Notes under the pieces: model-generated | Databases searched by the model: none | What the model was told of the DNA's origin: nothing | Seen by the model: only the letters and a program-made list of their open reading frames with translations | Source: a virus | IMG/VR virus record: IMGVR_UViG_3300028388_002072 | Coordinates: 1 to 23,499 of that record | Direction: 5' to 3' (one strand) | DNA length: 23,499 nucleotides | Translations under genes and position numbers: made by a program | In this document: piece by piece, positions 2,609 to 23,081 of the stretch | Numbering within the stretch: position 1 is the stretch's first letter | Layout of the letters: each line of letters starts with the position of its first letter

Positions 2609-3328
2609 CTAAAAATTTTGATTAATTAGTTCTTTTTCTTTAATAGAACCAAAGTTATAGTCTCGTAAGTTATTAAATACATTCTGTACGGCAATATCGA
2701 TTAATACCCGGCAATAAGTATCAGGTACATCTGAATGTACTACTGAAGAAGTTTGACTCGGATAAGTTACGTCGCCGTTAATAAATTCTAATGTATCATA
2801 ACCCCCAATAAAGGGTTTATTAGGTTTTTTAACATAAACCTGCTTTATGGAATTAATTGTATTTGGAAAATAAACCACAAGTTTATTATTCTCAATTACA
2901 GCGTAAGCTTTATTCCATAATAATTGTTGTTTATAGTTTAAAGAAGAATTAAGGTCTTGATGTTCGATAATTTCTACATTAATAAGATTACCACAATCAT
3001 CAAAAGCAGTTAGTGTACTGTTATGATAATAGTCTTGTGGTAGAGCAAATATCATTTCAAACTGATCAGAATAAGTTTGTAAACTTTCACGAGTAATGGT
3101 TGTGGGTTGAACTAAATTGCCAAGCATATCAATGCGTTGTTGATTAGTTTCAAAACCTAAAGTATATCCTCGATAATTCTTACCAGTAAAAAATAAATCT
3201 ACGTAGTCTAACGAGGCATCATACAATATGTCATCAATTATAGCATCATGAAAATCACGATAATGATTGGTGTCATATTTATTAGCTTCTTGTTTAAACA
3301 TTGCGTGTAAACGATGTACCGTACACAT
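2609..3328 (-). CDS. Putative head-tail connector / ring protein (239 aa)
   Basis: The frame opens at ATG 3328 with MCTVHRLHAMFKQEANKYDT. As I recall, this start resembles small connector-type proteins of Bacteroidota phages, which begin with a motif like M-T-x-H-E-L-H-x-x-F-K followed by a Lys-x-Asp and a helical segment (here FHDAIIDDILYDASLDYVDLF). This similarity supports the upstream ATG rather than Met10. The middle is beta-rich. The C-terminus contains a short helix (VLIDIAVQNVFNNLRDY). The gene lies between two larger structural genes and ends 17 bases before the 442-aa tail-type gene, a usual place for an adaptor or ring component. A collar or tail-completion protein is an alternative. 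Confidence 0.5.
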   Translation of the reverse strand: MCTVHRLHAMFKQEANKYDTNHYRDFHDAIIDDILYDASLDYVDLFFTGKNYRGYTLGFETNQQRIDMLGNLVQPTTITRESLQTYSDQFEMIFALPQDYYHNSTLTAFDDCGNLINVEIIEHQDLNSSLNYKQQLLWNKAYAVIENNKLVVYFPNTINSIKQVYVKKPNKPFIGGYDTLEFINGDVTYPSQTSSVVHSDVPDTYCRVLIDIAVQNVFNNLRDYNFGSIKEKELINQNF

Positions 3329-3339
3329 TTAATAAAGTT

Positions 3340-4482
3340 TTATTCAAATCGAATATTCTTACTTTTAACTTCTTCGTATAAATCTTTATACCAGTTAGTT
3401 AATGTTTTATCTTTAGGATTATACTGCTTGTATTCTTTTAAGAAAAATGCAATCAGTTTTTCGTATGAAGTACCTAAGTCATAAACATCAGGTGTTCCTT
3501 GCTTTGAATGCCAAATATACCGTTGATCGCGGTGAGTGAGTACATTTGTATTCAATGCTTGTTGTACTAGATATTTAATGTCTAATCGTTCTGCTCCATC
3601 GGGAGTAGTAGTTAGATTAAATACTTCGTTGAAGTTTTCAATATTAATATCTTGATTCGCATTGGAATCATTAATATATTCAGATAATGCTTTACTTACT
3701 CGTTCAGAAGAAACATCTCCTTGAATGATTACTCGACCATCGGTTTCTCTTAATACACAAGCAACTTGATATGCTTTAAACGGACTCATCTTTTTCTTAA
3801 GTGTATAAAGATTATGAATAGCTTCTTCAATACGTTCACGCGAGCGTGCGTAATTAACTTCTTGTTCATTGTCTTCAGATACATAAAAGTCATGTAAAGA
3901 AGAATTATACTCAGTAGAAGATTTCGCAATAATATCAGCATCAACTAATGCTTCCACCATTTTAATCAGGAGTTCCTGCCGTGGAGTTTCATTAGTTAAC
4001 ATATTAGGTCGCGGGTAAAGAATAAGCTTTAATTGCTGAAGATAAGTCATTTCATCTTCAAAGCGATTAATGTCTGAAGGTAAGTTTAACATTGTATAGC
4101 TAACTCGATCACTGTAGAAATCAGGAGCTTGACCATGTTTTAATTCTAGTAAGGTTTGCTCAGTGATTTTCTTTTGATCAAGAATAAAATCGAGTTGTTT
4201 CTGATAATCAGGATGCACATTATATGCATTAATTACATCTTCTGCGTTTAATCCTTGTAATGGATTAACAATAACTCGATCTAATAAAGTATGTAATTTA
4301 TTCTTCCCTGCATTATACGGAAAAGAATATTCTACCGTAGTTCCGTTTTCACGTGACTTACGCATAGAAGTTACTGGTGTAGCTACATCACCAATCTTAG
4401 TTACATACATTTGTTTATGTCGTCCCTGGGGAGAGTTTCGTTCAACCGGGTTGACCCAAATTTTTCTTATTTTTTGTTCCAT
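3340..4482 (-). CDS. Unrecognised structural-cluster protein (380 aa)
   Basis: ATG at 4482 encodes 380 aa (MEQKIRKIWVNPVERNSPQG). It is mixed charged, largely helical by composition, with a basic N-terminal 40 residues and a long central region rich in Lys/Glu and Gln (DYQKQLDFILDQKKITEQTL; RERIEEAIHNLYTLKKKM). No nuclease, protease or lysin motif was identified. It overlaps the 3' end of the upstream amidohydrolase-like gene by 16 bases, suggesting coupled translation, and precedes the connector by 11 bases. Position between capsid and connector suggests a head-completion, tail-assembly or internal virion protein. No family was recognised. Confidence 0.65.
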   Translation of the reverse strand: MEQKIRKIWVNPVERNSPQGRHKQMYVTKIGDVATPVTSMRKSRENGTTVEYSFPYNAGKNKLHTLLDRVIVNPLQGLNAEDVINAYNVHPDYQKQLDFILDQKKITEQTLLELKHGQAPDFYSDRVSYTMLNLPSDINRFEDEMTYLQQLKLILYPRPNMLTNETPRQELLIKMVEALVDADIIAKSSTEYNSSLHDFYVSEDNEQEVNYARSRERIEEAIHNLYTLKKKMSPFKAYQVACVLRETDGRVIIQGDVSSERVSKALSEYINDSNANQDINIENFNEVFNLTTTPDGAERLDIKYLVQQALNTNVLTHRDQRYIWHSKQGTPDVYDLGTSYEKLIAFFLKEYKQYNPKDKTLTNWYKDLYEEVKSKNIRFE

Positions 4483-5183
4483 TTTATTTTTTCATAATAA
4501 GTTAGTAAATGTTTAGCCATTTCTTGACTAAACTCATCTCTTAGATTTTTGTTAAATCGAAGTTCTTTTGGTAATTCTATTTGTATAGCTAATACATCAT
4601 CAGAACCATACTGTTCAACAGTATAGCCACCATTAAAATAAGAACCATTTAAAGTTTGTATTTTACTTGATGGATAACTTAAATAGCTTAAGTAGTTACC
4701 TAACGAATAATTAAACAATATATCTTCTTGAGATAAGTGAAATTGTTTATACTTTAAATTAGGTGAATAAGTTCTATTGTTTATATCTTGTTTAGATACA
4801 TCATAACCAAACTCAATTAATTCATGTTTATGCGTATGTCCATGTAAGTCTATTAACAAATTAATTTCTGGTAATAGTTTTTGAATCGCATAATGATACA
4901 TTTCATAATAAAAAGTACCATCGCTAGGACGATTAACATCAACATCTTTACGATGTAAGTCAAAAATTAATATGTGTGGTTTAACTTCAGATAACTCATA
5001 AATAGCATTAGCTATACTACGTGTATAAAGATCAGCCAGTTTATTTGGATTATCTTCAATAAATGGAGTATTATAAGTACCGTTATGAGGAACTGTTATT
5101 AATATAGGAACTTCACCTTCTAAATAAACAACTTGTGCTTCTACAGTAAAACTAAGTAGAAGTAATAGTAAAATGTTTTTCAT
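4467..5183 (-). CDS. Exported N-formylglutamate-amidohydrolase-like zinc enzyme (238 aa)
   Basis: ATG at 5183 gives a clear signal peptide (MKNILLLLLLSFTVEAQ) followed by a mature domain. Family-type motifs are VPHNG (His33), FDLHRKD (Asp75, His77, Arg78), VNRP (Asn84-Arg85), IDLHGHTH (Asp112, His114, His116) and E122. This His/Asp/Glu pattern is that of the N-formylglutamate amidohydrolase family, whose zinc-dependent members hydrolyse amide bonds and are related in fold to zinc carboxypeptidases. The signal peptide implies action in the periplasm or outside the cell. The gene begins just after the capsid-gene terminator and overlaps the next gene. Inside a virion cluster, a role on cell-wall peptide, capsule or the virion surface is more plausible than histidine catabolism, but the substrate is unknown. 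Confidence 0.65.
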   Translation of the reverse strand: MKNILLLLLLSFTVEAQVVYLEGEVPILITVPHNGTYNTPFIEDNPNKLADLYTRSIANAIYELSEVKPHILIFDLHRKDVDVNRPSDGTFYYEMYHYAIQKLLPEINLLIDLHGHTHKHELIEFGYDVSKQDINNRTYSPNLKYKQFHLSQEDILFNYSLGNYLSYLSYPSSKIQTLNGSYFNGGYTVEQYGSDDVLAIQIELPKELRFNKNLRDEFSQEMAKHLLTYYEKIKWNKK

Positions 5184-7953: not shown

Positions 7954-10318
7954 ATTCACTTTTCTTTAAACTTTCTTTTTGCAAGTCATATTCACCTTTT
8001 AATCTTTCTTCTAATTCTATCTTTTCAAGCTCACGTTGATGTTCAGCAACCTTCATTTGTTCCTGCTTATCCAATAATTCTAGCTGTGCTTGTTTCTCTT
8101 GTTCAGCCATTTGTTGCTGGAACTCACGTAGCTGCTTAGCACGAATCTGAATTAAACGATGTGTTTCTTCTGGTGAATTACCAGCAGTAATAGCAGAAAT
8201 AATTTCAGATACAGCCTCAACACCTTCACCTGCGTTCTGTGCAAACGCTTGCGAATATTGTAGCATATACTCATTATACTCTTTACGATTAGAAGAAGAC
8301 TTAAGATGTAAATCAATATCACCTGCTTGAAGCATATACGGAGTTACTTCAAAAAGTTCTTGCGTTCCATCAGGAAGAACATAAGAAAATAATAGATTGT
8401 TAGGGTTACGATCTAATTCATTTTTACAATAAGTTTTAAAGTTATGTAACCAGTCTTTAATAGCTTGTCGCCATACTTCGTCGATCTTTGCAAAGTAGGG
8501 TTCAGTAATATGATAAGATTGTAACAATGCCTGACGATTATCGGAAGCATTAGAATTAGCGGAAAACTGTGCTTCTCGTTGTGGAGGAACGCCTAATGCC
8601 ATACCTATTTCGTTTTCAATTAATCCTAAAAACTGTTGAAGATTGAATATTTCGGCAGCAGTACCAATAATATGTGCTGTTGATCCTGGACTTCTAGTAG
8701 GGGGTGGTGGCATATTATTCGTAGTCTGTGATCCAGAATACAAATTCAAACCTTCCATTTTACGATACGTTAACCACACTTTAATTGGGTCACGTAAATC
8801 ATTACCATCAATATCCTGACCTAATTGCTTGGGAATTTGATCAACATCAACGTTTTGAATGAAACCTTGATACTTTCTAAGTTCTCGATTCTCTAAATCT
8901 TTTACATAAAGATACTGCATATAAAGGGGTAATACTCTTTGTAAAGGAGAAATAGATCGAGCATTTCGTGCCGTAAAGACGCAACCAAAAGTAGATAGAT
9001 TAAAACTACCATACGGATCATTAACATCAATTTGTTGATGTGGAACACGACGATAGATAGGGTAAATATCGCCCTCTAATCGCACTACTTCGTGTTTAAT
9101 AGGAATCTTTAGCTTTTCAGCTTGATACTCAACATCGTCTTCAGTCCATATATACTTAACTGATTTATTACCAAAACGATTAACAAATTTTACTTTATTG
9201 GCATCTTTGGGGATTTCAAAATCAGCAGGTAAAGTTAAAATAATTTCTTCATTGTAATCATCGTGATAATGTAAAAAGATAATATCTTCAAAATGTCTAA
9301 ACTCAAAATGAGTTTCCCAAATTAAATTATCTCTAAAATCAGTCCCGGCTCTTGATTGAGAATGACCAATATGTTTATCAGGACGATAGTGTAAGTTAGG
9401 ATGATCTTCAACACGGGAAAATATAGACTCATCAATTAAATCACGCAATGGTTTAGCTTTACCACTCATTACATCATTGCTCTGATCGTAAATAGAAGAA
9501 CCATATTTACGTCTAATGCGTTCTAATTCCTCATCAGTAAGTAGATGTTGATAATCTTGATAGATTTCATCATAAGTTCTAGCTTTACGATAAGCAACGT
9601 AATCACCTTTATTAACATAGTGTTCATTACTAGCTTTTGAAAAAGCAGTAAATAGTGTATTACGTAATTCAAGAACGGGTTTACCATAACGCCAACCAGA
9701 ATAAACAAAAAATCTATCCGCACAATAAACATCTTCTAACGCTTCAACTTTTTTATGTTTAATGCCTTGTTGATGCTTACATAGTCGAATTGCTTTTTCC
9801 CAAAAGATTTCCCAATCATGTTTAAAGTTTTTAACATCAATATCTTCGGGTTGAATTCTTTTTTGTTCTTCTTCTACGTAACGATCTAGTTCTTCGGGAG
9901 CAACATTTTGCTGAATCTTTTCAATAAACTCTTGTATTTGTGGCTGAAGCTTTGCTATAATATTTTCTCTGATCTGTTCGTTCTTTTCTTTTAACAAGCT
10001 TTGATAAAGATTAACAATAGATAAATCATCTTCACGCTTATACATTTCTCCTTTTAAAATATTAATTTTATTATGAAGAACTGGATAAGGTTTAACCTTA
10101 GTAAGATTATCTCTCTCACCGAGTGGGTTACAAAACTCTTCAAATTCTTTCTGAAGAGCACGAAGATCGTCATGATAAATATCATAAGCAAGCTTCATTT
10201 TGTGAATATCTTCTAAATCCTCATATTCAGGAATTACAGTATTAATCTTGTGTTTATACCATTCCAAGCTATATTCTTTTGGTTCGGTATTATTTGAATA
10301 AAGTTCGTTAATGTACAT
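7952..10318 (-). CDS. Portal protein (788 aa)
   Basis: ATG at 10318 encodes 788 aa starting MYINELYSNNTEPKEYSLEW. The size, position between terminase/chaperonin and scaffold/capsid, and architecture are those of large portal proteins. There is a charged N-terminal region and a middle part with mixed beta structure and a proline-rich loop (NNMPPPPTRSPG) before a helical segment (AAEIFNLQQFLGLIENEIGM). The last 70 or so residues form a Gln/Glu/Lys-rich coiled coil (LREFQQQMAEQEKQAQLELL onward) that would correspond to the crown. Portal rings form the channel through which terminase pumps DNA. The start overlaps the chaperonin stop by 11 bases, suggesting coupled translation. I recognise the general type rather than a specific family. 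Confidence 0.75.
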   Translation of the reverse strand: MYINELYSNNTEPKEYSLEWYKHKINTVIPEYEDLEDIHKMKLAYDIYHDDLRALQKEFEEFCNPLGERDNLTKVKPYPVLHNKINILKGEMYKREDDLSIVNLYQSLLKEKNEQIRENIIAKLQPQIQEFIEKIQQNVAPEELDRYVEEEQKRIQPEDIDVKNFKHDWEIFWEKAIRLCKHQQGIKHKKVEALEDVYCADRFFVYSGWRYGKPVLELRNTLFTAFSKASNEHYVNKGDYVAYRKARTYDEIYQDYQHLLTDEELERIRRKYGSSIYDQSNDVMSGKAKPLRDLIDESIFSRVEDHPNLHYRPDKHIGHSQSRAGTDFRDNLIWETHFEFRHFEDIIFLHYHDDYNEEIILTLPADFEIPKDANKVKFVNRFGNKSVKYIWTEDDVEYQAEKLKIPIKHEVVRLEGDIYPIYRRVPHQQIDVNDPYGSFNLSTFGCVFTARNARSISPLQRVLPLYMQYLYVKDLENRELRKYQGFIQNVDVDQIPKQLGQDIDGNDLRDPIKVWLTYRKMEGLNLYSGSQTTNNMPPPPTRSPGSTAHIIGTAAEIFNLQQFLGLIENEIGMALGVPPQREAQFSANSNASDNRQALLQSYHITEPYFAKIDEVWRQAIKDWLHNFKTYCKNELDRNPNNLLFSYVLPDGTQELFEVTPYMLQAGDIDLHLKSSSNRKEYNEYMLQYSQAFAQNAGEGVEAVSEIISAITAGNSPEETHRLIQIRAKQLREFQQQMAEQEKQAQLELLDKQEQMKVAEHQRELEKIELEERLKGEYDLQKESLKKSE

Positions 10319-11735
10319 TATATAAAGAGTAGTTAGTATTAATTATCAACTTAGTGTTTGATAAAGCATTGAGTAATGCTTCAATTAATACTCGGGCAGA
10401 ATCTAATACACCAGCTTCAACTAAGTCTTCAATTGAGTTAGTGTGAATAGAATATCCAAAATTAGGTGTTGATAATAAAAATTCATTAATATCATCAAGT
10501 TCTACATTGGAATTTTGTAGAATTTTATAAGTAGGTTCTTTAAATACAGATAATTCAGAATCAAACTGATAAAGAATACTACCAGCACCCGGTACAAATC
10601 CATATTTAATACTAGATTGTACGGAACCGATTGCATCTTCAATTCGATCATATTGTTCTTTCATTGCTTCTTTAGTAGGACTACCAACGTAAATAACTGC
10701 AATATTATTACCTAAACGATAATAACGATTTCTATAATCTTCAATATCGTAAGGCTCGATTGCGTTTTCCCATTTATGCTTTAATTCTTCACGACGTTCT
10801 TCTAAGTGAGAATGATAAGAATTATAAAAAATACAAGAGTAATCATCGATTACTACTTTTTCACAAGAAGAATCTTCCGATAAAAAAGCTTGTAAATCAT
10901 CCATATTTTTATCTTGTCCCATACCGTAACCAGGCGTTCTAACTAAACACACCGGAGCACCTTCATTAACACGCAACATAGAAGCCTGACGAAAGAAAGC
11001 ATCGGAAAAGTCTGGTGCAATAATAACTAAAGGAATTTGTTCCTTTAATGCTGTGCTTAAATAATTTTGATATTCTTGCGGAATACCACGAATGGGATGC
11101 GAAGAAATATGTATGTAAGCATCTTCATAAACTGTGCGTTCAGCTTTACGATCAGTCATGAACGAGCGATGAATAAAACCAGAATCGAATTTTAATCCTG
11201 CTTCTACTTCGTACCGAGTATAAGGTTCTTCGGTTTCTTCTAATTCAATCATAATATCAAAATCAGTCTGTTCATAAATCTCTCTAAACAATTCACCAAT
11301 TTCTTCTGAATTAGAAGCAGTGGTTGCAATATTTTTAATCTGTTCAAGCGTATTTACTTTTCGTGTATGTTGTTTTATATGATCAATACACTTTTTAACT
11401 TCCTTTTCAAGAATATTATATTTTTTATGATCTTCTTTGCAATACTCTACAAACTTTTGTAACAAAAGAGAAGTAAGTGTCGTTCCATCACCAACTGAAT
11501 CTACTGTTTCTTTTGCCGCAGAAATCAAAAGCTTAGCTCCAATATTTTCAATTGGATCAGGTAAGTTAATTTCTTTAGCAACAGATACACCATCTTTAGT
11601 AATCTTTAAATCATTATCAGAATTAATAATAACTGTTTTTCCATTAGCTGACATTGTTGAAGTAATAATATTAGCAGCTTTATTTAGGCCAGTGATGATT
11701 GAATCTTGACCTTTTGAAATCATTTCCGTTTTCAT
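10308..11735 (-). CDS. Phage-encoded GroEL-type chaperonin (about 475 aa)
   Basis: The protein is a divergent group I chaperonin. Numbered from an upstream ATG at 11771, ITKDGVSVAKEI (57-68) matches the GroEL segment around Asp52 (Asp60 here). VGDGTT (93-98) is the ATP-binding motif containing the GroEL Asp87 equivalent (Asp95). RIEDAI (376-381) matches the region of catalytic Asp398 (Asp379), followed by FVPGAG (392-397), the counterpart of the GroEL VVAGGG. All three ATPase aspartates are therefore kept. It is about 60 residues shorter than GroEL and lacks a GGM tail. I prefer the ATG at 11735 (MKTEMISKGQDSI), which matches the GroEL N-terminus. Even so the gene overlaps the terminase end by 56 bases, and its stop overlaps the portal start. 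Likely role: folding capsid or other virion proteins. Confidence 0.9.
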   Translation of the reverse strand: MKTEMISKGQDSIITGLNKAANIITSTMSANGKTVIINSDNDLKITKDGVSVAKEINLPDPIENIGAKLLISAAKETVDSVGDGTTLTSLLLQKFVEYCKEDHKKYNILEKEVKKCIDHIKQHTRKVNTLEQIKNIATTASNSEEIGELFREIYEQTDFDIMIELEETEEPYTRYEVEAGLKFDSGFIHRSFMTDRKAERTVYEDAYIHISSHPIRGIPQEYQNYLSTALKEQIPLVIIAPDFSDAFFRQASMLRVNEGAPVCLVRTPGYGMGQDKNMDDLQAFLSEDSSCEKVVIDDYSCIFYNSYHSHLEERREELKHKWENAIEPYDIEDYRNRYYRLGNNIAVIYVGSPTKEAMKEQYDRIEDAIGSVQSSIKYGFVPGAGSILYQFDSELSVFKEPTYKILQNSNVELDDINEFLLSTPNFGYSIHTNSIEDLVEAGVLDSARVLIEALLNALSNTKLIINTNYSLYNVH

Positions 11736-14082
11736 TGAAAATTTTATTTTGTGAGAAAAAAACAAGTTCATTCTTTTCTCGTTTTTTAATTGCTTCTGTT
11801 TGTAATTGCGATTCTAATATACCTACGTGAACCGCACCCATTATCATTGATGAAACTGCATCAAAGTTACCATCTAATTCATAAGCAACAATTTGCTTAG
11901 TTGAAAATAAACAAGGTAACGTTTCTATAAATCTTAAACCGTTTGGTAATTCTTCTAGTAACCAATCATTTAATCTTTTTAACTTAACTAATTTATCCAT
12001 TTTATTTCCTACTACATACCCATACTCATTTACTCTTGTAGAATAAATTCTTTTTGAATCATGAACAACGGGTCTAAGCGTAAGTAAATATTCTTTATTC
12101 TTATTCATGTAGTAGTTTTTACAATCTGATCCTTTGTTTGCCTCATAAGCTAATCCTCTCACAGGATTGCCGTAAAACTGAATTAGCTTTTCTTGATTAA
12201 GATAATATTGCGATAAACCTTTTTCTGGTTTACCAATATACGTACAAACCATTGGTCCTGAAGGGGGCATATATTCATTCCAATACTTAGGACTAATAAA
12301 CCCATGAGTAACTCCTAACGAACCCCCATTATCAATATTCTCTGATACATAAGGGTCATGAGTAAAGAAATAAAAATCATTAGGTGCATCAAATTTAGGT
12401 AGATCATAAATAACAATTGATCCTTCGTGACTTGTTTTAGTACTATCAATTGGAAAATTATAAAAAGGATCGGCTTTATTGTCAATCTTATAAGCAACAC
12501 CATTAGGTTGATAAGAATCAAAACTAAGTGTTACGGGTAATGCTAAATCTAAATATGCGTTGTTTTTTATTAAAGCCTTTTCTCTAGTCACTCCTTCTTC
12601 GTATGGTAAATAATAACCTTTACTTTGTAACCACATTTCAGATGGAACAATTGGTCTGTTCATCTTTTCTTCTCTAATCACTGAAGCATCAGATGAAGAG
12701 AATCTTTTACGGTTACGATAAACGTGTTCAAAAGCTTTTGCAAAATCAGTATTACCATCTTTATCTTTAAATTGACGATAAGTGAGATATGCGGGTAAAA
12801 AGAATCCAATCATTCCATCTTTACCCATGCCTTCCCAAGAATCTTTGTAGGCAACAATATTATAATCCTGTGGATTAAGAAACATTCGTTTAGTCTGTTG
12901 GATAGCATCAATATTACCAGACGTACCTAAAAAACACTGAACGCCAAACTGTACACCATTACGAGCAACAATGTTGTTATTAGAATTGTATACATCAATT
13001 GCGTTTTGTGTAAGGCCGGTTTCCTCAACAATAGAATATTTAGTACGTCCACCAGCAGCGGCTTGTGCACCCTTACCCTTAGCTTTTTGAGCAGAATATG
13101 AAACATGATAAATTTTAGAGTTAGTACCATCATAAGTTTCTCTACCTTTAGATACAACCTTATATTCATGTCGCCAGGGATTCTTTTTATTACCAGGACT
13201 TAGTGAACCAGCCATATCTTTATATAAAGGATTAGGCGTATAGTCCTCATCCCCAGGTTCACCCCATACACCAAAAGCAGGGTTAATAGCTAAAACGTTC
13301 ATAGATGCTTTAATCTTGTTTAGAAACTCAGAAGATTTATCAGTATCTCCCGAACCAACAACAATTTCAACAAGTGTATTATCGTGTATTTCTTGATAAT
13401 CAGGTAATGTATAAAAATCACCATTATTATAATAATTAGCACCATCCGTAACAATTTGATGTAATGCTTTACCTAACGCAACAGAATAAGATTTTCCTCC
13501 GCCACGGGAACCCAAGATAAGATAGTTCTTAGCTTCATTAAACCATAAAGGAACACCTTTAGGTTTTTTATGTAATTTACGTATATTTTCTCTAGGTGTA
13601 ATATAACGTTTCTTTTCACCTTTAGAATTAAACAATTGTCTTTCTCTAAACGTCTCGGGAAACTTTTTATTATACGTAAATATTAACTCATCAGATGTAA
13701 ACATATCATCATCGTAATAGCCAGAAAAACCTTCTGCTTCCATTAATCCATAAAATATTTCCCATTCTAAATCAGTAATAGTAGGTTTAATATAAGTAGT
13801 AACTTTAGATTCATCAGTATCCTGAATCAGTGTATAATTACCATAAAAATATAAAGCGCCCGGCATATAACGATAACCTTGAGATTCTTGACCCCACAAA
13901 CCTTCAGTAACTATTTTCTTTTGTTGTTGCCAATATTCAATATAATTAATCTCATTTAAAGGATTAATACGAAGAATCTTATGCATATATTGTTGAAGAT
14001 TCTCAATACGTATATAATCTGTATTTAGTGTATACAAAGGTATATCACCAATCTTCTTTATTGTGCCAATATTCTCAATCAT
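11680..14082 (-). CDS. terL: Terminase large subunit (800 aa)
   Basis: This is the DNA-packaging motor ATPase and nuclease. After an N-terminal extension of about 185 residues comes Walker A GSRGGGKS (191-198). A Walker B region YSIVEETG (349-356, acidic pair Glu353-Glu354) and a coupling motif LGTSGN (385-390) follow. The C-terminal part shows an RNase H-type nuclease pattern: THDPYV with Asp576, AYEANKG with Glu647 and FDAVSSMIMG with Asp741. The length exceeds the usual 450-700 aa mainly because of the N-terminal domain (WQQQKKIVTEGLWGQESQGY region), which I recall also being long in crAss-like and other Bacteroidota phages. It overlaps the preceding gene by 4 bases (ATGA) and the chaperonin by over 50 bases. 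Confidence 0.93.
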   Translation of the reverse strand: MIENIGTIKKIGDIPLYTLNTDYIRIENLQQYMHKILRINPLNEINYIEYWQQQKKIVTEGLWGQESQGYRYMPGALYFYGNYTLIQDTDESKVTTYIKPTITDLEWEIFYGLMEAEGFSGYYDDDMFTSDELIFTYNKKFPETFRERQLFNSKGEKKRYITPRENIRKLHKKPKGVPLWFNEAKNYLILGSRGGGKSYSVALGKALHQIVTDGANYYNNGDFYTLPDYQEIHDNTLVEIVVGSGDTDKSSEFLNKIKASMNVLAINPAFGVWGEPGDEDYTPNPLYKDMAGSLSPGNKKNPWRHEYKVVSKGRETYDGTNSKIYHVSYSAQKAKGKGAQAAAGGRTKYSIVEETGLTQNAIDVYNSNNNIVARNGVQFGVQCFLGTSGNIDAIQQTKRMFLNPQDYNIVAYKDSWEGMGKDGMIGFFLPAYLTYRQFKDKDGNTDFAKAFEHVYRNRKRFSSSDASVIREEKMNRPIVPSEMWLQSKGYYLPYEEGVTREKALIKNNAYLDLALPVTLSFDSYQPNGVAYKIDNKADPFYNFPIDSTKTSHEGSIVIYDLPKFDAPNDFYFFTHDPYVSENIDNGGSLGVTHGFISPKYWNEYMPPSGPMVCTYIGKPEKGLSQYYLNQEKLIQFYGNPVRGLAYEANKGSDCKNYYMNKNKEYLLTLRPVVHDSKRIYSTRVNEYGYVVGNKMDKLVKLKRLNDWLLEELPNGLRFIETLPCLFSTKQIVAYELDGNFDAVSSMIMGAVHVGILESQLQTEAIKKREKNELVFFSQNKIFNENGNDFKRSRFNHHWPK

Positions 14083-17578: not shown

Positions 17579-18002
17579 TATCTTTTGTAGCATTATTATT
17601 AATTTTATACGGGTAAAAGAAATAAACTTTATTACTGTGTTCCCGAAAATATTCTTTCATTTTTCTTTGGAACTGTTCTAAGCTCTTATTAAAATAAGTT
17701 ACTTTATTGTCATCGGTGTATATAACACCTTTTCTACGTAAAGAGTAGAAAATTTGTTTAAAATAAACTGTTGACATTTCGTACTTATTCGTTACTTCTT
17801 CATAATAAGGATAGTCAAACCAATTAGTATCTGGATTACGAGATAAAACATCTGATAATATCTCTATTTCTTTATTAGTTAAGTCTACAGGTTTTGACAA
17901 CCCCTGTAAAATAAAAAACTGTTTCCAAAATTCTTGTTCAGTAATTTCGGTGGGTGTCTCCACATCACGTAAGATGTTTTGATTTAGTAAATTAAATACC
18001 AT
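17544..18002 (-). CDS. Putative winged-helix-type DNA-binding protein (152 aa)
   Basis: ATG at 18002 encodes 152 aa (MVFNLLNQNILRDVETPTEI). Residues 40-105 suggest a winged helix: a helix LTNKEIEILSDVL, a second helix near YYEEVTNKYEMS, a recognition-type helix TVYFKQIFYSLRRKGVIY and a wing DDNKVTYFNKSL. The C-terminus is acidic (NATKDNEETTHDDQEE). It is the first gene after the leftward promoter, with a leader of about 25 bases. A late-gene regulator or small terminase subunit would both fit a helix-turn-helix protein at the head of a packaging and head operon. The sequence does not decide between them. Confidence 0.55.
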   Translation of the reverse strand: MVFNLLNQNILRDVETPTEITEQEFWKQFFILQGLSKPVDLTNKEIEILSDVLSRNPDTNWFDYPYYEEVTNKYEMSTVYFKQIFYSLRRKGVIYTDDNKVTYFNKSLEQFQRKMKEYFREHSNKVYFFYPYKINNNATKDNEETTHDDQEE

Positions 18003-18031
18003 GATTCATAAGTTTTTTCGTTACTTTGATA

Positions 18032-18057
18032 CAAATATACAAAGAAAGTTTTACTAG
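18032..18057 (-). promoter_or_regulatory. Main leftward promoter of the morphogenesis operon
   Basis: On the minus strand TATATTTG (18039-18032) matches the Bacteroidota -7 box TAnnTTTG. An extra box CTAGTAAAA (18057-18049) lies exactly 9 bases upstream of it. No classical -33 TTTG is evident at the usual distance. The start codon at 18002 lies about 25 bases below the expected transcript start. Confidence 0.75.
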
Positions 18058-18122
18058 GGGGTTTTTCATTTTTAGTAGGGTAGTTTTTATTAGCAAATCT
18101 TGTTTAGAAAATGAAAAAGTAC

Positions 18123-18148
18123 CTAGTAAAAAAAGTTTTGTATATTTG
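18123..18148 (+). promoter_or_regulatory. Rightward promoter, sister copy of the leftward one
   Basis: The plus strand carries CTAGTAAAA (18123-18131), then 9 bases, then TATATTTG (18141-18148) and TA. Box sequences and spacing are identical to the leftward promoter facing away from it, which makes a chance match unlikely. Transcription would begin about 18150-18155 and run into the structured untranslated region and the glycosyltransferase operon. Confidence 0.75.
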
Positions 18149-18149
18149 T

Positions 18150-18530
18150 ACCCAACGGAAGGTTTTTGAGCTTGCACCTTACCAAAACCACATAGAAGCA
18201 AGTGTTTATCCGACTATTAGCCCTGAAATTATGCCAAGGAAAGCTTGGGGTTGATAAGGACTCCTAGTAGTCGTGTAAACGTAAATCACGATACAGACTA
18301 AATTGTAATAATGTATGTAACGCCCGTTTCTTAGAAACAGGGTGCAAAGATGATGGGAAACGTTCTACGACCCTACGCCTGTGAGCGGAATCATTACATA
18401 CTAAAAGCAAACATAAACTGTATGTTAAAAATAAGCCCATTTACTCAGGGTTGATAAAATGAGTAACGCTAAAATTCAAAATGCCTTGGGTTTTAATAAC
18501 CCTTGGTATGTCTATAACTAACATAAAAGA
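18150..18530 (+). ncRNA. Structured leader or non-coding RNA, about 380 nt
   Basis: This gap of over 500 bases (18003-18535) has no convincing gene but many local helices. GGTTTT (18161-18166) pairs with AAAACC (18183-18188), and CTTGC in its loop can pair with GCAAG further down, an H-type pseudoknot. Other helices are CCAAG/CTTGG near 18233-18247, GACT/AGTC and TCGTG/CACGA near 18258-18291, and a hairpin CCCGTTTC-TTA-GAAACAGGG (18323-18342). That hairpin lies inside a TATGTAA/TTACATA helix. AACATA/TATGTT, TTACTCA/TGAGTAA and GGGTT/AACCC near 18500 complete the set. GGGTTGATAA occurs twice (near 18247 and 18448). The 5' end ACCCAA can pair with TTGGGT near 18486. It could be an independent RNA or a regulatory leader. 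No known class was recognised. Confidence 0.55.
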
Positions 18531-18535
18531 AAAAT

Positions 18536-18712
18536 ATGAAAACAATTAAAAATCCAGACGTAAAAGAATACTGTAGTTTACGTGGCTTAGTTGAGCCTAG
18601 TGCGGGAAAATGTACAATAGATTTTTGTTTAAGATGTAAAAAGCTTGCTAATTCTAAAACAATAGAAAATAATCGAATATATCCTTTCACCACATTAAAT
18701 TTATTACCATGA
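18536..18712 (+). CDS. Small cysteine-containing protein upstream of the glycosyltransferase (58 aa)
   Basis: ATG at 18536 opens a 58-codon frame ending in TGA at 18710-18712, which overlaps the glycosyltransferase start in an ATGA junction. The product begins MKTIKNPDVKEYCSLRGLVE and has cysteines at 13, 26, 31 and 34, with the last two in CLRC, so a single zinc site is possible. The overlap and the promoter-driven leader upstream support translation. No family was recognised. A regulatory leader peptide coupled to glycosyltransferase translation is an alternative. Confidence 0.6.
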   Translation: MKTIKNPDVKEYCSLRGLVEPSAGKCTIDFCLRCKKLANSKTIENNRIYPFTTLNLLP

Positions 18713-19740
18713 GTTTGCCTCTCCCCTCAATTCTATTTATAAGTAGAGATAACAATGTGTATAATTCTAATGGCCAATATACATATGCTAGTGCGGGATT
18801 AAGTAACTCTGCAAAGTTTTTAGCTAATGCGTTAAACGATTATGGATACAGAACTAAAGTAGTTAGTGTAACAGATAGCAATAGCATTGATAAAGAAGTA
18901 CAAGACTTTAATGCCGACGTTATAATAACTGAAGCATTATTCATCCCTCCATACAAATGGACTGAACTATTATTAATGCCAGAACATATAAATCGAAAAT
19001 GGTATGTACGAATTCATTCTAAATTCTCATTCTTATCTACTGAAGGTATTGCAACTAAATGGATAAGTGATTATGTAAAACTACAAACTGCTTTTAACAA
19101 CTTCTGGATTGCATCCAATAGTAAAGAAGACGTAGACGTATTAAGTAAGCTGTTTAAAAAAGGTAAATTTGTGTATCTCCCTAATGTATATAACCCTGAA
19201 TTATTTATAGGAGAAAAAGTAATTATAAAGGAATGTGATGAAGTGCATATTGGTCTATTCGGTGCAGTACGACCATTTAAAAACTTTTACACACAAGCAA
19301 TTGCAGCAATATTGTTTGCGGAAGCAATTAATAAAAAGCTAGTGTTGTACATGAACCCAGCAGGTAATACAGGTAAACAAGTGATGAAGAATATTAAAGC
19401 ATTATTTGAAAATGAACACAAACTAGTAATCATAAACTGGTTAGAACATAAAGACTTTTTGAATCTTGTAAAACACATGGATTACGGTCTACAAGTATCA
19501 TTTACTGAAACCTTCAATATCGTAAGTGCAGACTTTGTACACATGGAAGTACCAATTATAGTAAGTAATGAAATAGACTGGTTGAACCAATACGTAAATC
19601 CAACAAGCGTAGAAAGTATTGTTAACGCATTGTTGAGTGTACATAATCAAAAACGCAACGAAGTAATAATTAAAAATAAACAACTCTTAAGCGCGTATAA
19701 CTACAAATCATTACTTAATTGGATGCAGGTGATCGATTAA
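18709..19740 (+). CDS. GT-B fold glycosyltransferase, family 4-like (343 aa)
   Basis: ATG at 18709 encodes 343 aa. The N-terminal Rossmann-like half starts LPSILFISRDNN and contains GLSNSAKFLANALNDYGY, as in GT4 enzymes. The C-terminal domain starts HIGLFGAVRPFKN (180-192), where these enzymes have a Gly/Arg/Lys nucleotide-sugar-binding loop. It ends with SFTETFNIVSADFV (264-277) and EVPIIVS (280-286). These match the E-x7-E region, with Glu267 retained and Asp275 in place of the second Glu. It probably transfers a sugar from a nucleotide-sugar donor. The acceptor could be modified phage DNA, host surface glycan or a virion protein. It is the main enzyme of the rightward operon. Confidence 0.8.
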   Translation: MSLPLPSILFISRDNNVYNSNGQYTYASAGLSNSAKFLANALNDYGYRTKVVSVTDSNSIDKEVQDFNADVIITEALFIPPYKWTELLLMPEHINRKWYVRIHSKFSFLSTEGIATKWISDYVKLQTAFNNFWIASNSKEDVDVLSKLFKKGKFVYLPNVYNPELFIGEKVIIKECDEVHIGLFGAVRPFKNFYTQAIAAILFAEAINKKLVLYMNPAGNTGKQVMKNIKALFENEHKLVIINWLEHKDFLNLVKHMDYGLQVSFTETFNIVSADFVHMEVPIIVSNEIDWLNQYVNPTSVESIVNALLSVHNQKRNEVIIKNKQLLSAYNYKSLLNWMQVID

Positions 19741-20968: not shown

Positions 20969-20980
20969 TCTTCCGGGTGT

Positions 20981-21015
20981 GTGCTGTCCTTCGGGGCAGT
21001 GCACTACCTTTTTTT
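20981..21015 (+). terminator. Strong rho-independent terminator with UUCG loop
   Basis: CTGTCC (20984-20989) pairs with GGGCAG (20994-20999) around a TTCG tetraloop. The stem is extended by GTG (20981-20983) with CAC (21002-21004) across a small bulge. A run of seven T lies at 21009-21015. It follows the GC-rich gene by 12 bases. Confidence 0.85.
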
Positions 21016-22477: not shown

Positions 22478-22520
22478 AAACAAGTGTAGAAGTCAAATCA
22501 CCTTTCAATAATTAAATAAA

Positions 22521-22745
22521 GCTCAAGACGAAAGTCTTAACCAGTGCGGTTATGTAAACCGTGTAGTACGATATTATATTAATTAGCTGCGACCGCAAAT
22601 CGTATCTATGACATATAACTATCCTATAGCTGGTTCAATAAGGCTTAATGGCGCTGACTGCAAATCGCTGCTATTAAGTACGAACAAGTCTATCTGGTTT
22701 AGCCAGTACGAAAAAAAGCTACAATAGACTTGGCTTTATTTTTAT
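22521..22745 (+). ncRNA. Structured non-coding RNA candidate ending in a terminator-like stem
   Basis: No gene is visible between 22478 and 22862. The first part folds locally. AAGAC-GAAA-GTCTT lies at 22525-22538 and CGGTT/AACCG at 22547-22561. TACGAT (22567-22572) pairs with ATCGTA (22599-22604). CTTAAT (22644-22649) pairs with ATTAAG (22673-22678). A 9-base stem CAAGTCTAT (22685-22693) with ATAGACTTG (22724-22732) contains a CTGG/CCAG hairpin and leads into GCTTTATTTTTATT. A 17-base motif occurs in similar form at 22586-22602 and 22651-22667, both ending GCAAATCG. No known class was recognised. Confidence 0.5.
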
Positions 22746-22752
22746 TAAATAT

Positions 22753-22886
22753 AATTCCCTTAGCATAAGCACCTTAGCGGGTCATCGGTAATGCGCCTGA
22801 CTTTACTCAGGAGAAGCGTTTAATAGTTATACTAGGAAAACTATTAAAGAGATTTAACAATCTTGGTTCGAATCCCGGGGGAATTA
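22753..22886 (+). other. Abnormal tRNA-like element
   Basis: The 3' half follows tRNA spacing exactly: T-loop TTCGAAT (22867-22873) in GGTTCGAATCCC, 3' T-strand 22874-22878, then GGGAATT (22879-22885). GGGAATT pairs perfectly with AATTCCC at 22753-22759 as a 7-base acceptor stem. The 5' half has a D-arm-like GGTAATGC and an anticodon-arm-like CCTGA-CTTTAC-TCAGG (22796-22811), whose loop has only six bases. The region before the D-arm contains a CCTTAGC direct repeat that adds about 14 bases. A 10-base hairpin (TTTAATAGTT/AACTATTAAA, 22819-22848) sits where the variable arm should be. The T-stem has one mismatch and no CCA is encoded. No anticodon is assigned. It could be a decayed or interrupted tRNA, a tRNA mimic, or a tRNA-derived attachment site. 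Confidence 0.4.
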
Positions 22887-23081
22887 CTAACAGTTCATTG
22901 TAAGAAAGGGTTCGACATACTCAAACGTGGATTCTCTACTGAAGAAGATACTATTGTTCAAGTAAAAGGACTAGATGCGATGCAAGAAACCAATCTAGCA
23001 TTGTATCTGGAAGAATGGGTAAAACGTTACCCTAAAGACACCAAGCGCAAAGAACTACTTGATCAACTCAATCATTATTAA
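22863..23081 (+). CDS. Hypothetical small protein with uncertain start (up to 72 aa)
   Basis: The frame from TTG 22863 to TAA 23081 encodes up to 72 aa. The middle and C-terminal parts look like a genuine protein (KKGFDILKRGFSTEEDTIVQ; LALYLEEWVKRYPKDTKRKE). The only ATG is at 22980 and would give 33 aa. The TTG is preceded by AACAATC, like the other start contexts in this region, but lies inside the T-arm of the tRNA-like element. Either translation starts at this TTG, or another non-ATG codon is used, or only the short form is made. No family was recognised. Confidence 0.45.
   Translation: MVRIPGELLTVHCKKGFDILKRGFSTEEDTIVQVKGLDAMQETNLALYLEEWVKRYPKDTKRKELLDQLNHY

Follow-up and report, generated by a model that had tools for sequence, protein, structure and literature searches.

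The Crassvirales rank among the most abundant of all known phages, and the switch of their transcription is poorly understood. Here, we analysed a 23,499-nt stretch of viral DNA (IMG/VR record IMGVR_UViG_3300028388_002072, positions 1 to 23,499; hereafter the window), in which a promoter is followed by 386 nt before the first ORF (18150-18535, + strand). What, then, is transcribed from this promoter, and what is it for? A sequence-only reading had suggested a structured RNA that acts independently or regulates a glycosyltransferase operon. Based on homology and covariation, we are almost certain that the region is a real structured RNA. A conserved RNA located exactly at an early promoter is a concrete and testable element for the study of Crassvirales transcription, and the covariance model and sequence blocks presented here allow others to find more members.

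Gene layout and promoters

Judged by its proteins, the window derives from a crAss-like phage, of whose genome it covers a part: the major capsid protein matches the Pfam family Crass_capsid (E 4.7e-36), terminase and portal match PHROG head-and-packaging families, and the best match of the terminase among named phages is Cellulophaga phage phi14:2 (30% identity). A Cpn60-type chaperonin is encoded between terminase and portal (10308-11771). The structural genes occupy the part up to 18002 and run leftward, while the other block runs rightward from 18536. Since regulatory and replication genes are early and structural genes late in phi14:2 and crAss001 (PMC10136315), we termed the rightward block 'early'. 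It opens with a 58-aa ORF (18536-18712, + strand) without any family match, followed by a second gene (18709-19740, + strand) with a weak glycosyltransferase-like match (PHROG 2170, E 1.7e-5). Upstream of both, the absence of a good gene from about 380 nt, as read from the sequence, was borne out: in the standard code no credible gene lies within 18150-18535, where all ORFs wholly inside are short. A gene in which TAG and TGA are read as sense codons was rejected as well, as the frames opened in this way contain several such codons and look chance-like.

An inverted repeat at 18025-18155 (arms 18025-18072 and 18108-18155, 48 nt each, 79% complementary) contains a pair of identical promoter cores that have CCTAGTAAAA elements and point away from each other. 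The 14-mer TTTGTATATTTGTA is found exactly on both strands: the copy at 18030-18043 (- strand), inside the 48-nt inverted repeat, is the promoter core of the late (structural) block and precedes the ATG at 18002 by 28 nt, and the copy at 18137-18150 (+ strand) is the core for the RNA and the early block. In the latter, TATATTTG at 18141-18148 is a perfect Bacteroidetes-type -7 element (TAnnTTTG). On the + strand between 18000 and 23499 this motif recurs only once, within the glycosyltransferase gene. Transcription of the RNA would start at about 18152-18155.

Homologues in other phages

Relatives were gathered by terminase-guided searches. When 1.6 Mb were searched with the region by nhmmer, a single match emerged (E 0.028). 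It lies on L112, an IMG/VR contig of a crAss-like phage with a 42% identical terminase, and is encoded on the other strand than this terminase. The exact blocks GGGTTGATAAGGACTCC, TTATGC, AACGCCC and GGGTGCAAA are common to L112 and the window. An exact 23-mer pattern gave no match in IMG/VR; it was too long, because L112 diverges after GGACTCC. The gapped pattern TTATG N10-26 GGTTGATAAGGAC, derived from two of the shared blocks, hit 19 stretches in IMG/VR, two of which bear the rest of the architecture, namely L112 again (as L161) and L159, a 31-kb IMG/VR contig with early and replication genes; the other 17 lack the other blocks and look like chance. As the gapped pattern sets no condition on helices, these provide an independent test, and a covariance model built from the window and L159 alone recovered L112 with 61.6 bits (E=2.4e-11, a rough value from a short calibration). 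A structured RNA on the + strand is common to the window and at least two other phages, one of them certainly crAss-like, and the family as known comprises three members.

A search of 50,697 phage records with megablast and with sensitive blastn gave nothing convincing. No further members were found with the covariance model on the loci of the collected relatives, in about 30 whole crAss-like records or in a second IMG/VR pattern scan, and a pattern scan of one genome per species across 84,980 bacterial and archaeal species yielded five matches, all apparently due to chance. Weak model matches in L016, L017, L005, L040 and L026 were rejected because the conserved blocks are missing, and TTGATAA was rejected as a family motif of crAss-like noncoding regions, being about equally frequent in both orientations. 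Applying blastn, nhmmer and the model, we detected no homology with noncoding stretches of phi14:2 (L011 2905-3589), L020 (3132-3668), L045 and L039.

In L159, the RNA opens a 31-kb block that is encoded on a single strand and contains genes for a DNA polymerase, a helicase and a Sak4-like ATPase, and CCTAG...GTATATTGTA can be read from the sequence at the place corresponding to the promoter core of the window. In both phages, the RNA directly follows the early-block promoter. In L112, genes on the same strand and one gene on the opposite strand come before the RNA, and no adjoining TAnnTTTG was detected. For the window, the evidence strongly indicates that transcription of the RNA begins from the host-type promoter (18137-18150) and continues into the early regulatory and replication genes.

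Structure and covariation of the core

The core domain (18204-18280, + strand) consists of an outer helix (18204-18209/18275-18280), P1 (18211-18220/18264-18273), the short internal helix P1b (18222-18224/18257-18259; CCU/AGG, shorter in L112) and P2 (18234-18238/18244-18248), all on the + strand. Folded separately, the three cores assume the same P1/P1b/P2 shape in their minimum free energy (MFE) structures. Two blocks stand out by their conservation: GCCCTGAAATTATGC at 18220-18234 (+ strand), which reads GCCC-Y-GAA-R-TTATGC in all three members, and the block around GGGTTGATAAGGACT at 18247-18262 (+ strand), which is identical in all three.

The trimmed cores of the window and L159 were aligned with MAFFT by sequence only, and part of the P3 hairpin of the window (described below) was removed for the alignment only. 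Each of the 20 modelled pairs forms in both phages and none is broken, with seven changed on both sides and one on one side; sliding the partner strand by 1-3 columns left 0-1 two-sided changes. When L112 was included, two-sided changes were seen in 13/20 pairs with 96.7% of cells paired, compared to 1-3 pairs and 40-50% of cells in the slid controls. The count for window and L159 is the cleaner one, since the three-way alignment was fitted to the model. The alignment of related phages and the test for covarying pairs had been proposed along with the sequence-only reading; homologues do exist and their pairs covary, which supports a structured RNA with its own promoter.

Chance hairpins in an untranslated spacer without function would be another explanation for the region, and its overall fold energy is indeed ordinary. 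The 386-nt region reaches a z of -2.8 to -3.1 (two runs), whereas 386-nt segments along the contig have a mean z of -1.7 (sd 1.6) with 33 of 156 at or below -3.1, so energy alone proves nothing. The absence of a member from about 30 other crAss-like records would also fit this explanation. An 84-nt core alone, however, is unusual in the window (z -4.7, reached by 0/200 shuffles), while the other two cores score -1.8 and -2.3. Chance hairpins are contradicted by the recovery of L112 with the model and by the compensatory changes across three phages, in which unpaired blocks are exactly conserved as well. We thus consider a lack of function hardly credible.

The pairing could also act in the DNA, as a replication origin or as an N4-like hairpin promoter for a virion RNA polymerase. 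The position at a strand switch beside the large inverted repeat would suit such a role, as would the use of a virion RNA polymerase for early genes by crAss-like phages (PMC10136315). But the inverted repeat is separate, and the structure that covaries is situated downstream of the promoter and fits the transcribed strand only: read from the other strand, its G.U pairs, among them an invariant one in P3, would turn into A.C mismatches, which identifies the + strand as the functional one. Moreover, loops and unpaired bases are conserved as expected for an RNA fold. A role in DNA is therefore very improbable, and we regard existence, strand and structure of the RNA core as demonstrated.

Elements flanking the core

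Upstream of the core, the possible pseudoknot 'near 18161-18202' turned out to be present, together with the hairpins, as an H-type pseudoknot at 18159-18203 (+ strand), composed of S1 (18159-18163/18176-18180) and the abutting S2 (18170-18175/18198-18203). An H-type pseudoknot is expected in 9-13% of shuffles for each sequence and in 13% for the stretch of the window. In L159, its counterpart likewise stands about 10-12 nt after the -7 element, with an identical S1 (AAGGT/ACCTT) and S2 again abutting; S2 differs in its letters (GCTTGC/GCAAGT in the window, CCTAT/ATAGG in L159) and is complementary in both. Because the two phages agree in place and in S1, a chance pseudoknot is unlikely. The element was not found in L112.

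Downstream, the hairpin P3 (18319-18348, + strand) with the invariant flanks AACGCCC...GGGTGCAAA has an identical stem including one G.U pair in all three members and a loop of varying length. It may be part of a second domain (18313-18401, + strand), in which P4 (18313-18320/18394-18401) would enclose P3 and a small junction (P5, 18349-18354/18390-18395). Compared by eye, P4-P7 (18313-18401) appear similar between window and L159, e.g. in the GCAG/CTGT of P4; this assignment is tentative, as P4 is found in the MFE structure of the window but not in that of L159.

Two further features pointed out in the sequence-only reading lost their weight. The repeated GGGTTGATAA (18248 and 18448) is present, yet 12% of shuffles also contain a repeated 10-mer, and GGTTGATAAGGAC has only one copy each in L159 and L112. 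The end-to-end pairing of ACCCAA with TTGGGT is likewise found in the window, but also in 6% of shuffles, and it was not seen in L159.

For the stretch 18215-18226, a local partner competes with 18445-18456. The full-length MFE structure of the window prefers the latter, so that pairing with the second GGGTTGATAA takes the place of the core. This model fold is a caveat or possibly a switch. A riboswitch or another ligand-sensing leader controlling the first early gene would make use of such competing folds, and the 5' position, the pseudoknot and the invariant unpaired bases would be in line with it. Nevertheless, the competing partner 18445-18456 is not conserved, no Rfam riboswitch family matched above its cut-off and the three phages have unrelated first genes, which renders ligand sensing improbable.

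Comparison with known RNAs

The Rfam search suggested beforehand placed the region outside known families: among all 4227 families of Rfam 15, none reached its gathering threshold, and matches with E up to 5 were only low-complexity chance matches. The covariance models of GOLLD and ROOL did not match, nor did the group I and group II intron models, and no split gene surrounds the RNA. The literature searched held no description of this RNA, nor of structured RNA in Crassvirales. Following these comparisons, we rate the RNA as a new family, structured phage RNAs of puzzling function being already known from GOLLD and ROOL. With these it shares the features of phage-encoded large structured RNAs with pseudoknots and unexplained function outside coding sequence; GOLLD members are often longer than 800 nt and near tRNA islands (PMC12286853), whereas the window RNA is smaller than GOLLD and ROOL.

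As a TROVE protein is encoded among the early genes of crAss001 (PMC10136315), we also considered a partner RNA of the bacterial Y RNA type (Ro60/TROVE). No TROVE gene was found in 22 records (window, L159, L112 and 19 others, of which most, including these three, are fragments), and no Y RNA fold was recognised.

Phage phi14:2 (NC_021806.1, L011) itself appears to encode a tmRNA in its early block at 4031-4500 (ARAGORN tag GSSVQKLAMVA; 46 bits against Rfam RF00023, cut-off 47), where the record shows only removed short ORFs. In this crAss-like relative, too, a structured RNA is thus apparently encoded among the early genes, but the window RNA has no tRNA-like end or tag frame, and both ARAGORN and Rfam were negative for tRNA and tmRNA.

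Possible role in the early transcription unit

But, why should these phages maintain such an RNA in front of unrelated genes? A regulator specific for the glycosyltransferase operon, as originally suggested, finds no support: the gene adjoins the RNA in neither homologue and had no tblastn match in phage records and no pattern match in IMG/VR. The first ORF is different in all three phages (a 102-aa ORF in L159, the start of another short ORF in L112), so that control of any single gene is unlikely, too. The distance from core to first ORF ranges from about 130 to 340 nt.

We tentatively favour, at somewhat less than even probability, that the RNA acts in cis at the head of the early transcription unit, as its leader. 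Upon synthesis, the 5' pseudoknot would fold, as would the P1/P2 core with its invariant unpaired bases, and together they would cap the 5' end; a protein, or RNA polymerase itself, might bind the folded leader, which could then promote processive transcription through terminator-like hairpins between the downstream genes, protect the transcript, or both. This leader is favoured by (i) the placement at the start of the block in the window and L159, (ii) the lack of any detected intrinsic terminator between RNA and first ORF, and (iii) terminator-like hairpins further downstream. By consensus matching, the early block of L159 has 29 such hairpins in 20 kb on both strands, compared to 11.8 (sd 3.2) expected; the window shows no excess (5 versus 3.6), with a strong one at 20979-21004. 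That the early half of the window contains only one intergenic TAnnTTTG on the + strand also counts for a leader.

HK022 put, EAR and LoaP-dependent leaders are structured and located just after the promoter of a long early or operon transcript. A comparable promoter-proximal place is taken by the RNA in the window and L159; in L112 it stands elsewhere than at the start of the early block. The proposed mode would be like that of HK022 put or Bacillus EAR in manner, without any claim of identity; both are short, sequence-unrelated and from a different host phylum, and read-through is an analogy here. In phi14:2, a virion RNA polymerase transcribes the early genes (PMC10136315), for which reason host-type terminators and promoters may not matter.

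The main point against a leader is the L112 copy, which is placed away from an operon start and stands alone at a second divergent junction. This copy would better suit the main rival, which we judge nearly as likely: a noncoding phage RNA that stands alone after processing or termination and acts in trans, e.g. within an RNP, as decoy for host defence or a translation factor, or in assemblies like GOLLD and ROOL. The conserved core with many invariant unpaired bases would be expected of a free RNA, which also fits the unrelated downstream genes and the variable distance to the next ORF, and the early blocks of other crAss-like relatives also contain stretches of 400-700 nt without ORFs. On the other hand, no terminator-like 3' end was found, the RNA is smaller than GOLLD and ROOL and without Rfam match, and the 22 related records, most of them fragments, offer no Ro60-like TROVE partner protein.

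Returning to the cis-acting leader, a bolder and rather unlikely version of it may be formulated: this would be the first described structured-RNA family at a crAss-like early promoter that acts directly on the polymerase making it, host or virion-borne, as a device for processivity or takeover, and the ORF-less stretches of other early blocks would be diverged or analogous versions.

Further observations in crAss-like relatives

ORF-less, hairpin-rich stretches of 400-700 nt were observed in the early blocks of L020 (3132-3668), L045 (4788-5277), L102 (4400-4940) and L109 (3570-4280), all on the - strand, and phi14:2 has one of about 650 nt (L011 2905-3589) just upstream of its apparent tmRNA. 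Long stretches of this kind are possibly a general habit of crAss-like relatives. A second noncoding stretch of the window (22483-22890) shows a tRNA-like outline with an acceptor AATTCCC...GGTTCGAATCCC...GGGAATT, a long variable arm and a CTTTACT loop; ARAGORN makes no call there and the fold is not unusual. Minimal tRNA-like elements, composed of acceptor stem and T-arm only (e.g. GAAGCA...ACATGAGTTCGATTCTCATGTGCTTC), stand at the ends of noncoding stretches in L039 (about 3050-3100, - strand) and L046 (about 1400-1460, - strand).

At the end of contig L003, part of the first late gene is repeated nearly identically (1-205 and 730-890), probably an assembly artefact or a rearrangement at the strand switch. 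The terminase large subunit of L006 (3895-7356) carries an intein-like insertion within an ORF of 1153 aa. In L172 (1748-4668), a 242-aa ORF that by eye resembles a homing endonuclease splits the DNA polymerase into two ORFs, an arrangement expected of a mobile intron.
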